Shown: one piece after another, positions 28,873 to 34,212 of the stretch
How positions within the stretch are numbered: position 1 is the stretch's first letter
Layout: each line of letters starts with the position of its first letter
From: Gammaproteobacteria bacterium
Lineage (GTDB): Bacteria > Pseudomonadota > Gammaproteobacteria > Steroidobacterales > GCA-2729495
Length of the DNA stretch: 41,469 bases
Assembly (NCBI GenBank): GCA_029245525.1
Contig: JAQWPD010000059.1
Span: forward strand, 1 to 41,469
Reading direction: 5' to 3'
The notes under the pieces: generated by a model
What the model was told of the DNA's origin: nothing
The model's database searches: none
Seen by the model: only the letters and a program-made list of their open reading frames with translations
Made by a program: the position numbers and the translations under genes

Positions 28873-29559
28873 ATGGATCAGAACACACTGTTTGACCGCG
28901 TTATTGAAAGGATTGGCGCCGTTAGTCCGCTCAAAGCAATGCCGATTGAAGCTGAGCTCGCCAAACCAAAATCATTTCTAAAGCTGGTTGATGCCGAGCA
29001 CTATAACTGGTCGAGCAATGAGTTTCGCAAAGTATTTGGCATGCGCTTCCGCGTCAAAGTGCCGCCGCTTGATCAACTCAATATTATTGCTTATCCGGCA
29101 GCGGACAAGAACCTGCCTATTTTTATCTTCTTTTGCATGCTCACCAAGCGAAAGTGCATTGCGCATATTAACGTCAACCTGCCCTTCTCTGATGCTGCCT
29201 ATATTGACCAGCATGTAAAACCACTGGTCGACATCCGCAACACTTACGAGCCTTTCGAATGCAAAGATCGCTACCCCGCGTGGATGCAAAAGTTTCAGAA
29301 TGAATGCTCGATATATGGCCTATTTCCCCGTGATCGCTACGATGATATTGCCGATTGCGCGATACGCTATGCCGACGCTTATATGCAGCAAGTGGCAGCT
29401 GCAGAGGTAGAAACAAACCCCGAGCGTCTGGGCCAGCTAAAGGCCTTTCAGGATCAGTTCATCGATGATATACGCACACAGGATAAGGCTCAGGGCATGA
29501 TTGCAAAGATGATCGGGAAGAAAACCGCCCGCCGCATCTTCTACGAAGTTACAACGTAG
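28873..29559 (+). CDS. Ferredoxin-dependent bilin reductase-like protein
   Basis: A 228-residue protein I align from memory to the FDBR family (PcyA, PebA, PebS, HY2). Matching points: FRKVFGMRFRV; LDQLNIIAYP, where N70 aligns with the conserved Asn of PebA/HY2 (His88 of PcyA); NLPIF; a following hydrophobic strand ending IAHINV; YIDQHVKPLVDI; and the C-terminal DKAQGMIAKMIGKKTARR, typical of the family end, with D204 at the conserved C-terminal Asp. The central catalytic Asp of most FDBRs (Asp105 in PcyA) appears to be F87 here. Start ATG 28873 has aagga upstream and lies 39 bases after hisE, so it is probably in the his operon. No heme oxygenase is nearby. Activity may be altered or absent; an unrelated fold remains possible. 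Confidence 0.6.
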   Translation: MDQNTLFDRVIERIGAVSPLKAMPIEAELAKPKSFLKLVDAEHYNWSSNEFRKVFGMRFRVKVPPLDQLNIIAYPAADKNLPIFIFFCMLTKRKCIAHINVNLPFSDAAYIDQHVKPLVDIRNTYEPFECKDRYPAWMQKFQNECSIYGLFPRDRYDDIADCAIRYADAYMQQVAAAEVETNPERLGQLKAFQDQFIDDIRTQDKAQGMIAKMIGKKTARRIFYEVTT

Positions 29560-29650: not shown

Positions 29651-32263
29651 CTAAACGATAAACTCAGCTGCGATACCCCGAAGATTGTAGTTTGAACCCA
29701 TAACATAGCCATACGCACCCGCATTGGCGATCAATAGCACATCACCCTCTTCTGTCGCAGGCAACAAGCGATCAACACCAAGACGGTCGCCGGTTTCACA
29801 AATAGGCCCTACAACCGAGACAACCTGACTCGGTGACTCATCCGCTTTACTGAGATTCGCGATCTCGTGATACGCACCATACAGTGACGGACGCAGCAAC
29901 GAGTTCATGCCCGTGCTGACCCCCACATAGCGAACCTCGCCTTTGCCTTTTGTCTGCGTAACCGTGGTTAACAGCACGCCGGAGTTGGCAACCACATAGC
30001 GCCCAGGCTCCATCCAAAGCTCCAGTTGTGGGAACTCGGCTTTAACCGCATCAAGCGACTCTGACACTGCAGCCATGTCCAACGGCGCCTGACCAGGCTT
30101 CTCTGGAATCCCTAAGCCACCACCCAAATCGAGGAATTTAACTGCAGGAAACACCTCCAGCGCCTCCACCAAATGACGTGCAACGTAGTGCCAGTTATCG
30201 GCCTGCAAAATCCCGCTACCGGTATGGGCGTGCAAACCGACAACCGCAGCACCAGCCGAATCAACCAGCTCACATGCTTCTTCCAACTCGAACATAGGAA
30301 TGCCAAATTTAGAATGCACACCCGCGGTGCGCACATGCTCGTGATGACCACGTCCCTGACCAGGGTCCAAACGCAATATCAGCTCTTTGCCGGCAAATAG
30401 CTCAGCCCAATGCCGCAACGGATGCAGGTTGTCCAGCGTGACCCGAACGCCCTGCTCCAAACCGAATGCATAATCTTCACGCGGCGCAAAGTTAGGCGTA
30501 AACAGTATCCGCTGAGGGTCAATATCCGGAAACAATTCAAGAACCCGGCGAATTTCGCCCGGTGAGACGCACTCAAAGTTCAAGCCACTCTCATGCACAA
30601 TCCGTAAAACCTCAGGATTGCTATTAGCTTTGATGGCATAAAATACGCGATCAACTGACTTCAAGCCCAACAAATTGGCGCAGGCCTGCTGAATTGACTC
30701 GCGATCATAAACATAGGCGGAAGAATGCTCTTGGGCCAAGCTAATTAACGCTTCACGCTTTTGCATCCACCAGGAAGGAGCCGCCTCTGGCAACACTTTC
30801 TGTGCCGCAGGACCTTCCTGAATCTCCTCCCAGGTCTCGCCGAATACTTTGTCCCTTGCCTCGGCTTGAACCAGCGTTGCATGAAAGCTCTTCACCAAAC
30901 GCACAGACTGCTCTTCATCCACCACAAAACTCAGATTCAGATCACTGGCGGCCTGACTCACCAAATGAATTTTATTTTCTTCAAAGACTTCCAGCGTCGG
31001 TCCGATCTCATGCAACAGCGCACGAATCTTCTGACCCACCAGACTGACTACAGCCACATTGGTTTGTATCTGCACACGACACAAACTGCTCAGCCGGTTG
31101 CGCAAACGCTCCAGCATGGCCTGATCCATTGAGTTCGCGCCGGGATCCAGCGTCACCGTAACGCTACTTTCCGATGTTGAAACAAGATCAATAGAAATTC
31201 CTAAGTCACTGAAAACCCTGAATGCATCGGCAAGAAAACCGACCTGATGCCACATTCCCAACGTTTCCATCGACACCAGCGTGATACCACGACGGTGCGA
31301 CACCGCTTTCACCCTTGCAGAGTCATCACCGGCATCGCGAGTGATGAGGGTACCGGGCTCTTCCGGACGATGGGTGCAACGAACCCACAAGGGTATATCG
31401 TAGCTGCGCACTGGAGAAATCGAGCGAGGGTGCAAAACAGATCCCCCGGTAGAGGCTATCTCCTGCGCCTCTTCATAGCGCAGTGCTTTCAGCAAACGGG
31501 CGCCGGAGACGACCCGCGGGTCAGCGCTGAACATGCCCGGCACGTCCGTCCAGATTTCTAAACGCTCGGCCTCCAGCTTTGCCGCAAAATAAGCCGCGGA
31601 GGTATCCGACCCACCGCGCCCTAACAGCACGCTTTCACCCAGCTCATTGCGGGCAATAAAGCCCTGAGTCAGAACGATGTCACCGTTACGAGAAAAATCA
31701 GCCTGCAAGTCAATATCCGGGGCATAGGCACAGGTCGCCGACAAATAGCCCGCACGTTCAGCAACATTGCTTGGCTCAGTACTGGTAAGCACATCACGGG
31801 CATCAACCCAAACCACGGGCAAGCCCTGCTGTTGCAAATAGGCAGCACCCAGAGCAGTGGTCATCAGTTCGCCCATGGACATGACCTTTACCTGCATACG
31901 GTCACTCACTTCGCGCACTAAGCGGACACCACTCACCAGCTGATCCAGCTCTTCCAGGTAGCCACCCAACAAGGACTGACTGTCGAGACCCAATGAATCA
32001 CCCAGCCCGAGATAACGCGCCTTGAGCTCGGCCAGCAGCTCAGCATGCTCTCCACGAGTGGCCAAGCCAAGCAGCGCTTCTAGCTGATTGGAGGTGCCAC
32101 GAATAGCGGAGTGCACAATGACCGGCTGCACACCTTCAGCAACGCGCTGACGCACCAGGTCCGCAATAATTGCCCAGCTTTCAGCGGTAGCGACACTGGT
32201 GCCGCCAAACTTCATTACCACCCAAGGCACGGCAACCTCACTGTTCTGATTTTTTGCGTTCAT
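29651..32263 (-). CDS. lysC-lysA: Bifunctional aspartate kinase / diaminopimelate decarboxylase
   Basis: About 870 residues, a fusion of the first and last enzymes of lysine synthesis. The aspartokinase part (about 1-465) begins WVVMKFGGTSVATAESW and carries GRGGSDTSAAYFAAKLEAE and two ACT domains (near LISMETL-type and VSLVGQKIRAL segments). The decarboxylase part (about 490-870) has the PLP lysine in VFYAIKANSNPEVLRI, then HAHTGSGI, EPGRYVVANSGVL and ICETGDRL. This fusion is known from Xanthomonas relatives and other gammaproteobacteria. I prefer ATG 32263; a GTG at 32308 would start only 13 bases after a terminator. A leader ORF and terminator precede it, suggesting lysine-responsive control. 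Confidence 0.95.
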   Translation of the reverse strand: MNAKNQNSEVAVPWVVMKFGGTSVATAESWAIIADLVRQRVAEGVQPVIVHSAIRGTSNQLEALLGLATRGEHAELLAELKARYLGLGDSLGLDSQSLLGGYLEELDQLVSGVRLVREVSDRMQVKVMSMGELMTTALGAAYLQQQGLPVVWVDARDVLTSTEPSNVAERAGYLSATCAYAPDIDLQADFSRNGDIVLTQGFIARNELGESVLLGRGGSDTSAAYFAAKLEAERLEIWTDVPGMFSADPRVVSGARLLKALRYEEAQEIASTGGSVLHPRSISPVRSYDIPLWVRCTHRPEEPGTLITRDAGDDSARVKAVSHRRGITLVSMETLGMWHQVGFLADAFRVFSDLGISIDLVSTSESSVTVTLDPGANSMDQAMLERLRNRLSSLCRVQIQTNVAVVSLVGQKIRALLHEIGPTLEVFEENKIHLVSQAASDLNLSFVVDEEQSVRLVKSFHATLVQAEARDKVFGETWEEIQEGPAAQKVLPEAAPSWWMQKREALISLAQEHSSAYVYDRESIQQACANLLGLKSVDRVFYAIKANSNPEVLRIVHESGLNFECVSPGEIRRVLELFPDIDPQRILFTPNFAPREDYAFGLEQGVRVTLDNLHPLRHWAELFAGKELILRLDPGQGRGHHEHVRTAGVHSKFGIPMFELEEACELVDSAGAAVVGLHAHTGSGILQADNWHYVARHLVEALEVFPAVKFLDLGGGLGIPEKPGQAPLDMAAVSESLDAVKAEFPQLELWMEPGRYVVANSGVLLTTVTQTKGKGEVRYVGVSTGMNSLLRPSLYGAYHEIANLSKADESPSQVVSVVGPICETGDRLGVDRLLPATEEGDVLLIANAGAYGYVMGSNYNLRGIAAEFIV

Positions 32264-32321
32264 AAGCCTTGCAAAGCCTTTGTTCTGAATATCTGTACCA
32301 GCCGACACTTCAAGCCGCCGA

Positions 32322-32350
32322 CAAAAAAAAGCCCGCGGATGTGCGGGCTT
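32322..32350 (-). terminator. Terminator between the lysine-rich leader ORF and lysC-lysA
   Basis: On the minus strand an 8-base stem aagcccgc/gcgggctt (32350-32343 with 32336-32329), 6-base loop, then eight U. It lies 43 bases after the leader ORF stop and about 60 bases before the lysC-lysA start. It could end ilvD transcripts, act as the lysine attenuator, or both. Confidence 0.92.
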
Positions 32351-32433
32351 TATTGTTTTTATCGAACTGTTTCAGTTCCCGCAAACATTGCCTCACACAA
32401 AACCAGCAACGGGTTTCTTACCTTTGCCGCGGG
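32331..32433 (-). promoter_or_regulatory. Candidate lysine attenuator: mutually exclusive pairings
   Basis: Reading the minus strand: segment 1 (32433-32423, cccgcggcaaa) lies on the Arg-Gly-Lys codons of the leader. Segment 2 (32385-32378, tttgcggg) starts about 7 bases after the leader stop. Segment 3 (32348-32341, gcccgcac) and segment 4 (32338-32331) form the terminator core. Possible pairings are 1:2 (cccgc/gcggg), 2:3 (tgcggg/cccgca, 6 bases) and 3:4 (terminator). A separate 6-base hairpin (gaactg, 32378-32364) lies between 2 and 3. Geometry matches classical attenuation, but pairings are short and no energies were computed. Confidence 0.5.
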
Positions 32434-32461
32434 TATTGCGCATACGCTTCGTGTGAGACAT
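32393..32461 (-). CDS. Lysine-rich leader ORF upstream of lysC-lysA
   Basis: A 22-codon frame, ATG 32461 to TGA 32393, beginning MSHTKRMRNT and continuing RGKGKKPVAGFV. It has four Lys and three Arg; three Lys codons fall within four (aaa ggt aag aaa). It is followed by a terminator and then the lysine biosynthesis fusion gene, and preceded 7 bases upstream by the -10 of a candidate promoter. It could be an attenuator leader peptide sensing Lys-tRNA. Alternatives: a longer small membrane protein from in-frame TTG codons upstream (adding a hydrophobic segment ending LGLLAV), or chance. No Shine-Dalgarno is visible, as would be expected if the transcript is leaderless. Confidence 0.5.
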   Translation of the reverse strand: MSHTKRMRNTRGKGKKPVAGFV

Positions 32462-32468
32462 GACCGCA

Positions 32469-32497
32469 AGTAGACCCAATACGCCGACACAGGTCAA
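32469..32497 (-). promoter_or_regulatory. Candidate promoter of the lysine leader / lysC-lysA
   Basis: On the minus strand, -35 ttgacc (32497-32492, five of six), a 17-base spacer, and -10 tctact (32474-32469, four of six). It begins 30 bases after the ilvD stop. Transcription would start at about 32461, the leader ATG. Confidence 0.5.
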
Positions 32498-32526: not shown

Positions 32527-34212
32527 CTAATCGCCCGTTACTGCGCCGGTCGACGCCGAACTCACCAGCTTCGCGTATTTGGTGAGCACACCGGGCGTAG
32601 CCCCTGAGTCAGGGCACACCCACTTCGCCTTACGCCGATTAAGCTCCGCATCAACCACGTGCAGATCAATTTCACGAGTCTCGGCATTAATGGTGATGAC
32701 ATCACCGTCTTCAACCAGCGCCAGCGGACCCCCTAAGGCGGCTTCCGGACTAACATGCCCCACAACGAACCCATGGCTGCCGCCTGAAAAGCGGCCATCG
32801 GTAATTAGCGCGACCTTGTCTCCCAGACCTTTGCCCATAATCGCGGCAGTGGGGCTGAGCATTTCACGCATACCCGGGCCGCCTTTCGGCCCTTCGTAAC
32901 GAATAATCACCACATCGCCGGCAACAATATTGCCATCCAAAATTGACTGCAAGGCCTCTTCTTCTGAACCAAAAACCCGGGCGGTGCCTTCGAAGCTGGT
33001 TCCTTCCTTGCCGGTGATTTTGGCAACGGCACCCTCGGGTGCAAGGTTGCCGTACAAAATAACCAGATGCGAATCCTCTTTAATGGGGTTGCCGAAGTCG
33101 CGAATAATGCCCTGGCCGGACGGATAGTCCTCCACATCAGCAAGATTTTCAGCCATGGTTTTGCCACTCACGGTCAAACAATCACCGTGCAACATGCCAT
33201 TATCAAGCAAGCGTTTCATCAGCGGACGAATACCGCCAATCGCAATCAACTCGGACATCGAGTATCGACCACTGGGCTTAAGATCAGCCAACAGCGGCGT
33301 TTTTGCACCAATGCGAGTGAAATCATCGATATCAAGTTCAACACCCGACTCGCGCGCCATTGCCAACAAATGCAATACAGCATTGGTTGAGCCACCCAAG
33401 GCGATCACGACGGTGATCGCGTTCTCGAAAGCGTCACGAGTGAGAATATCGGACGGCCTTATGCCTTGGCGAACCATGTTCATTACGGCCTGTCCGGCGC
33501 GAAAGCAATCCTCGCCCTTTTCCTCGGACACCGCATTCTGTGCAGAGCTGTTCGGCAAACTCATGCCCAGTGCCTCAATGGCAGAGGCCATGGTGTTGGC
33601 CGTGTACATGCCGCCGCAGGAGCCAGCACCAGGAATTGCGGTGCGCTCAACCTCGAGCAGTTCCGCTTCACTGACCTTGCCGCCGGCAAGCCCACCAACA
33701 GACTCGAACACAGACACAATGTCGCGGCCCTCGGCTCCTGGCTTAATGGTGCCACCGTAGACAAATATCGAAGGACGATTGAGGCGAGCCAGAGCCATTA
33801 AACAGCCCGGCATATTTTTATCGCAACCACCAATGGCAACAATGCCGTCGAAACCTTCGGCACCTGCAACAGTTTCAATAGAATCTGCAATAACCTCACG
33901 CGAAACCAGCGAGTAACGCATACCCGGGGTGCCCATCGAAATCCCGTCTGAGACCGTAATGGTGTTGAACTCAAGCGCTTTACCGCCCGCCTCGTCAACA
34001 CCTGCGGCAGCCCGATGAGCCAGCTTGTCAATATGCATATTGCACGGAGTCACCATGCTCCAAGTCGATGCAATACCAATCTGGGACTTATTAAAGTCTT
34101 CTTCAGCAAAGCCTACCGCACGTAACATGGCGCGACTCGGCGCCTGTTCAACACCATCGACAACAATGCTTGAATAACGGCGTTCCTGAGATTCTTTGGT
34201 TTTGTCAGTCAT
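32527..34212 (-). CDS. ilvD: Dihydroxy-acid dehydratase
   Basis: A 561-residue Fe-S dehydratase of valine, isoleucine and pantothenate synthesis, making the 2-oxo acids from dihydroxy acids. Cluster cysteines are in [23 protein letters not shown] and [15 protein letters not shown]. The [13 protein letters not shown] and [21 protein letters not shown] signatures are intact. It supplies 2-oxoisovalerate for LeuA and substrates for IlvE encoded elsewhere in the window. It is transcribed alone; the nearest terminator downstream on its strand is the one at 32322-32350. The start is ATG 34212. Confidence 0.97.

Follow-up and report, generated by a model that had tools for sequence, protein, structure and literature searches.

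What controls lysC-lysA, the gene for a bifunctional aspartate kinase / diaminopimelate decarboxylase, in this gammaproteobacterium? Lysine genes in Gammaproteobacteria are usually described as riboswitch-controlled. In the window, by which we mean the whole 41,469-nucleotide stretch of DNA analysed here, an Rfam search at the gathering score gave no match, including to the lysine riboswitch (RF00168), the T-box and the Thr, Leu, Trp and Phe leaders. A permissive search returned weak, sub-threshold matches only, over the terminator region. RF00168 was found in 0 of 60 relatives, and the controls from E. coli, B. subtilis, T. maritima and L. lactis all matched.

A predicted leaderless unit between ilvD and lysC-lysA

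The interval between ilvD and lysC-lysA, on the minus strand, contains a promoter (TTGACC-17-TCTACT), a 22-codon ORF and an intrinsic terminator (Table 1). A preliminary description of the sequence had placed promoter-like hexamers, this ORF and a strong terminator before lysC-lysA, and all are where it put them. Its count of three Lys in four codons is also correct (codons 13, 15 and 16), and codon 5 is a further one. The true start of lysC-lysA is likely the ATG at 32263, behind AAGG. A 228-aa ORF adjoining lysC-lysA (28873-29559, plus strand) has weak, sub-cut-off similarity to ferredoxin-dependent bilin reductases (E 7.5e-9).

Table 1. Positions of the leader elements and neighbouring genes in the window
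Element	Position	Strand	Basis or remark
-35 hexamer TTGACC	32492..32497	-	17-nt spacing to NNNACT in 43/43 leaders examined
-10 hexamer TCTACT	32469..32474	-	Spacing and hexamers recur in 43 leaders
Predicted transcription start, A of leader ATG (+/-1-2 nt)	32461	-	Predicted from the 7 nt between -10 and ATG
Leader ORF, 22 codons, ATG...TGA, peptide MSHTKRMRNTRGKGKKPVAGFV	32393..32461	-	Frame and family conservation
Lys codon 5 (AAG)	32447..32449	-	Present in 3/3 genomes of the genus
Lys codons 13, 15, 16 (AAA GGT AAG AAA)	32414..32425	-	Two congeners retain K16 only
Segment 1, TCTCACACGAAGC	32446..32458	-	Folding: partner of segment 2 if ribosome absent
Segment 2, TGTGTGAGGC, overlaps stop codon; antiterminator 5' strand	32390..32399	-	Folding and switch statistic
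Segment 3, GCCCGCACA; antiterminator 3' strand	32340..32348	-	Folding; congeners identical here
Intrinsic terminator AAAGCCCGC-ACATCC-GCGGGCTTT and T-run	32323..32351	-	Stem 32351-32328; 3' arm is segment 4
lysC-lysA, bifunctional aspartate kinase / diaminopimelate decarboxylase	29651..32308	-	NF006515, 1192 bits, cut-off 802
ilvD, upstream neighbour outside the attenuator unit	32527..34212	-	Same direction as the terminator

The promoter is absent from a consensus promoter scan because the scan requires A at position 2 of the -10 hexamer. TTGAC-17-NNNACT is present in 14/14 aligned leaders of the window's family, and an ATG lies 6-9 nt past the -10 in 13 of these 14 and in 8/8 leaders of family f6 (6-8 nt in the latter). 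In the window the distance is 7 nt, a feature overlooked by the preliminary description, so the transcript is predicted to begin at or beside the start codon, and the leader would be both transcribed and translated in leaderless form. The pattern by itself is uninformative, since the window genome holds six other TTGAC-ACT-ATG units against three for a reversed control pattern. A longer frame of 34 codons from TTG 32497, co-conserved with the 22-codon ORF, was dropped because its first codon falls within the -35 element, and promoter conservation accounts for what is conserved 5' of the ATG.

Lysine codons and the predicted switch

Judged from the sequence and from folding models, the unit is very likely a translated attenuator, and it probably controls lysC-lysA transcription through the ribosome in response to lysine. 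RNA polymerase would initiate at a dedicated promoter downstream of ilvD, the RNA 5' end would be the start codon of the leader ORF, and a ribosome would translate it immediately. With ample Lys-tRNA the ribosome would reach the stop codon and mask segment 2, segments 3 and 4 would pair, and transcription would terminate. With scarce Lys-tRNA it would stall at the Lys codons, and 2:3 pairing would block the terminator, so that lysC-lysA is transcribed. We infer both Lys-tRNA as the signal and this direction of control.

The leader region folds more stably than 200/200 shuffles (z -4.2). Segment 2 pairs with either segment 1 or segment 3, and segment 3 is common to the antiterminator and to the 5' arm and loop of the terminator; 1:2, 2:3 and the terminator are thus mutually exclusive by folding, as had been proposed. 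In the window, the antiterminator forms between TGTGTGAGGC, over the stop codon, and GCCCGCACA of the terminator arm and loop. By equilibrium folding, which leaves out polymerase pausing and kinetics, its probability is ~1.0 with the ribosome at the Lys codons and 0.32 with the ribosome at the stop codon, for transcripts cut before the terminator 3' arm and free RNA counted from 14 nt past the first base of the A-site codon. Summed over the 13 leaders of the window's family, the switch is 7.72 vs 1.60 +/- 0.97 in shuffled sequences, and f6 together with family f15 gives 5.19 vs 1.49 +/- 0.93. This shuffle-controlled folding supports the earlier suggestion that stalling at Lys codons frees segment 2 to act against the terminator.

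Fifty-six of 58 Lys codons occupy positions at which a stall permits antitermination (Fisher p ~2e-8), a result that weakens to p 0.005 at a 16-nt offset and is partly trivial, since past the boundary lies GC-rich antiterminator sequence. The last permissive codon marks where the control region ends by the definition of PMC1183508, and each of the eight f6 leaders has its final Lys codon there or directly beside it. When the RNA is free of ribosomes, most leaders of the window's family are predicted to favour the antiterminator. Shut-off there would therefore depend on translation, and the models give no clear sign of the classical shut-off in which segments 1 and 2 pair in the absence of a ribosome.

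Lys is the most enriched residue in the 13 leader ORFs of the window's family, with 33 observed vs 14.2 expected (z 7.1), in a set of sequences that are related and hence not independent. The expectation is drawn from dinucleotide shuffles that keep the frame open; the standard deviation for Lys is 2.6, and 0/400 shuffles reach 33. Met comes second (z 3.35), and Arg is at z 0.1. The two Lys codons, AAA and AAG, occur in equal measure (17 and 16). The ORF frame holds 33 Lys and the other two frames 9 and 3, so selection acts on the amino acid. The lysC-lysA protein itself has a Lys content of 2.7%. Lys positions drift, with two congeners keeping K5 and K16 without K13 and K15, and Lys codons are scarce in several leaders (one each in L023 and L261). 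The conservation in relatives that the preliminary description looked to extends to the ORF and its Lys content and not to the individual KxKK codons, even within the genus. The third-codon-position excess is 9/13 and 11/16 within the window's genus and is not significant in pairs more diverged than that. A Pfam search of the leader peptides gave no match.

A K[RHY]M motif is recurrent between families, as would suit a TnaC- or SpeFL-like nascent peptide that stalls its own ribosome with free lysine as the trigger. We find such arrest very improbable, because the peptide drifts fast except in its Lys and its length, and little is invariant even among 14 leaders. We consider it unlikely that the leader senses several aspartate-family amino acids (Lys, Met, Thr) rather than lysine alone, in the way that the E. 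coli thr leader responds to both Thr and Ile. Besides the second rank of Met in the window's family, f6 leaders hold 24 Met vs 8.0 shuffled (z 6.6) and 23 Thr vs 12.3, next to 20 Lys vs 6.6 (z 6.8). However, Lys ranks first in both families, and some Met codons adjoin K[RHY] by descent. The window genome also encodes a second aspartokinase, in a long fusion-sized frame, and lysC-lysA serves lysine. We therefore favour lysine as the main signal, and regard this as probable. The f6 leader peptides L255-L265 are rich in Met, Thr and Lys, e.g. MAMTTKGKTTMTMAIGKCAVSGLVLPMV; as all three are aspartate-family amino acids, multi-amino-acid sensing is possible in that family.

Leaders in relatives and their independence of ilvD

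We sampled lysC-lysA homologues from the window's family and order, plus named genome records. By our count, 35 genomes of the window's family have an upstream region that can be assessed; the unit stands before lysC-lysA in 15 of them and is absent from 20. Four families of the order have it in all: besides the window's own, these are the related Woeseiaceae, most of which carry it, and two more. In f6, eight lysC-lysA loci carry it with ORFs of 27-28 codons, e.g. MNRTGLKQTTSKPIMRKRIVSGSLVPMR, and in the best cases the antiterminator CAGCGGGTT is complementary to the terminator arm AACCCGCTG. One f15 genome has the leader MKLIITLIKKHKPAKPVLELF, then a terminator. The ORF is lost in L027 of the window's family and in a near-identical relative. 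Two other f6 loci, L266 and L267, retain a TTGAC promoter-like element with start codon and terminator gone, an apparent decay of the attenuator.

A terminator downstream of ilvD and in the same direction could simply belong to that gene, as the preliminary description had cautioned, with the ORF a chance frame. We reject that caveat and hold this reading to be extremely improbable. In every leader, a conserved promoter separates ilvD from the terminator. Within the window's family, ilvD and lysC-lysA are either 6-115 nt apart, too close for the unit to fit, or 270-330 nt apart, and every member with the longer gap has the promoter together with a terminator placed ~150 nt from the -35. The unit also travels with lysC-lysA where ilvD is missing, which the same description had named as a point to look for. 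The fetched flank of L056 contains no ilvD, and what precedes the leader and lysC-lysA there is a kinase-like 785-aa ORF; neither L158-L160 nor L261 and L262 (f6) gave an ilvD match within the fetched stretch. Because the unit survives where ilvD is absent, the terminator is not that of ilvD.

The Woeseiaceae leader RNA

The 28 Woeseiaceae-type lysC-lysA loci in alignment A1 share this promoter and terminator, and the start codon is exactly 6 nt past the -10 in 63/81 scored leaders. A covariance model made from Woeseiaceae leaders strongly matched 84 genomes in the order, essentially Woeseiaceae only, and elsewhere in the class gave two weak matches. Helix 1:2 joins CACCCAC..GUGCC with GGUGC..GUGGGUG over 12 pairs. 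Together with a variable hairpin it covaries (107 cells changed on both sides vs 28.3 shuffled), and these helices are 94.4% paired vs 24-55% when slid. The alternative 2:3 pairing has 53 double-sided changes vs 25.9 shuffled, and in L067, L075 and L089 changes in segment 2 are matched in both segments 1 and 3. Covariation of 1:2 and of 2:3, the latter suggested earlier as a check, is thus found in the Woeseiaceae-type leader; in the window's family the evidence for these pairings is shuffle-controlled folding.

Leaders L045-L095 and L140-L225 (e.g. L125:1261-1448) carry this covarying aptamer-like RNA, with an ultraconserved core, AUGGCGCGCCAGAGG. It is nearly always present once per genome, and no Rfam family matched it in the loci scanned. 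The ORF is present in most genera and lost in a group of leaders within genus g54, several of which stand before lysA alone; the RNA core is kept in this group.

Such an RNA raises the possibility that the leader binds its ligand (lysine) directly, as a riboswitch, with the ORF secondary. The covarying three-helix structure of the Woeseiaceae leader, its ultraconserved unpaired stretches and its persistence in ORF-less genomes speak for this. Woeseiaceae Lys codons are mostly AAA (120 vs 32), as expected if selection is on RNA rather than codons. For the window we find a riboswitch improbable, because its family is without such a conserved core (55% column identity), is not detected by the Woeseiaceae model, and shows codon-level selection for Lys with AAA and AAG mixed. 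In Woeseiaceae a riboswitch is conceivable, since the aptamer-like RNA is retained even after loss of the ORF; the leader there could act as a riboswitch, under ribosome control, or in both ways. More doubtfully, Woeseiaceae could hold a second, unrelated class of lysine-responsive riboswitch, with three helices and the core GUAnnGUGCC...UAAAAnnnAUGGCGCGCCAGAGG. It would have derived from, or been exchanged with, the leader-peptide attenuator, and intermediates with both a leaderless ORF and an aptamer would be extant.

Seven orphan Woeseiaceae leaders, L230-L236 (G235, G283, G251, G227, G275, G279, G233), lie behind ilvD and are followed, over the downstream stretch fetched, by a glutathione S-transferase-like gene or by genes on the opposite strand instead of lysC-lysA. 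In G275, lysC-lysA is encoded elsewhere; the other six genomes have only distant homologues (about 30%). These leaders may be relics, small RNAs or switches that have been retargeted. In another Woeseiaceae genome, G327 (L061 / L227), a deletion runs from just past the Lys codons through half of the terminator. Unless it is an assembly error, this would be a natural loss of the switch and would give constitutive expression.

Relation to known lysine control

Comparative studies attribute the control of lysine genes to the L-box riboswitch (PMC1262725; PMC2659441), including lysC of Shewanella, another gammaproteobacterium (PMC2659441), the same gene for which no such element was found in the window or the 60 relatives. 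In the open literature, to which our search was confined (subscription papers lay outside it), we found no lysine leader peptide or attenuator. Older surveys of proteobacterial attenuators cover his, thr, leu, ilv, trp and phe and are not known to include lys.

The predicted mechanism resembles that of the trp, his, thr, leu, ilv and phe attenuators (PMC1183508, PMC2659441), which likewise have codons for the product amino acid in a short ORF, mutually exclusive segments, an intrinsic terminator and a stop codon at segment 2. The window differs from them in its Lys codons, its lysC-lysA target, a start codon predicted at the RNA 5' end and fewer regulatory codons. A leader ORF that begins at the RNA 5' end is known from Sinorhizobium meliloti trpL, where the attenuator transcript starts with the ATG itself (PMC7298713), although that is a Trp leader before trp genes in an alphaproteobacterium. 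The unit, conserved over several families, would be a lysine-specific leader-peptide attenuator, predicted to be leaderless.

Replacement of the sensor at the same gene has been described for T-box vs leader peptide, where syntenic attenuators have different sensing parts (PMC2965389). Here, the pair would be a leader ORF (the window's family, f6, f15) vs an aptamer-like RNA with or without an ORF (Woeseiaceae). The locus thus appears to be a lysine version of leader-peptide attenuation, predicted leaderless, in families without RF00168 in the sampled genomes. One order holds leaders of the peptide type, leaders that combine an ORF with elaborate RNA, and leaders of RNA alone, and with the three side by side, sensor replacement at the same gene becomes directly testable.
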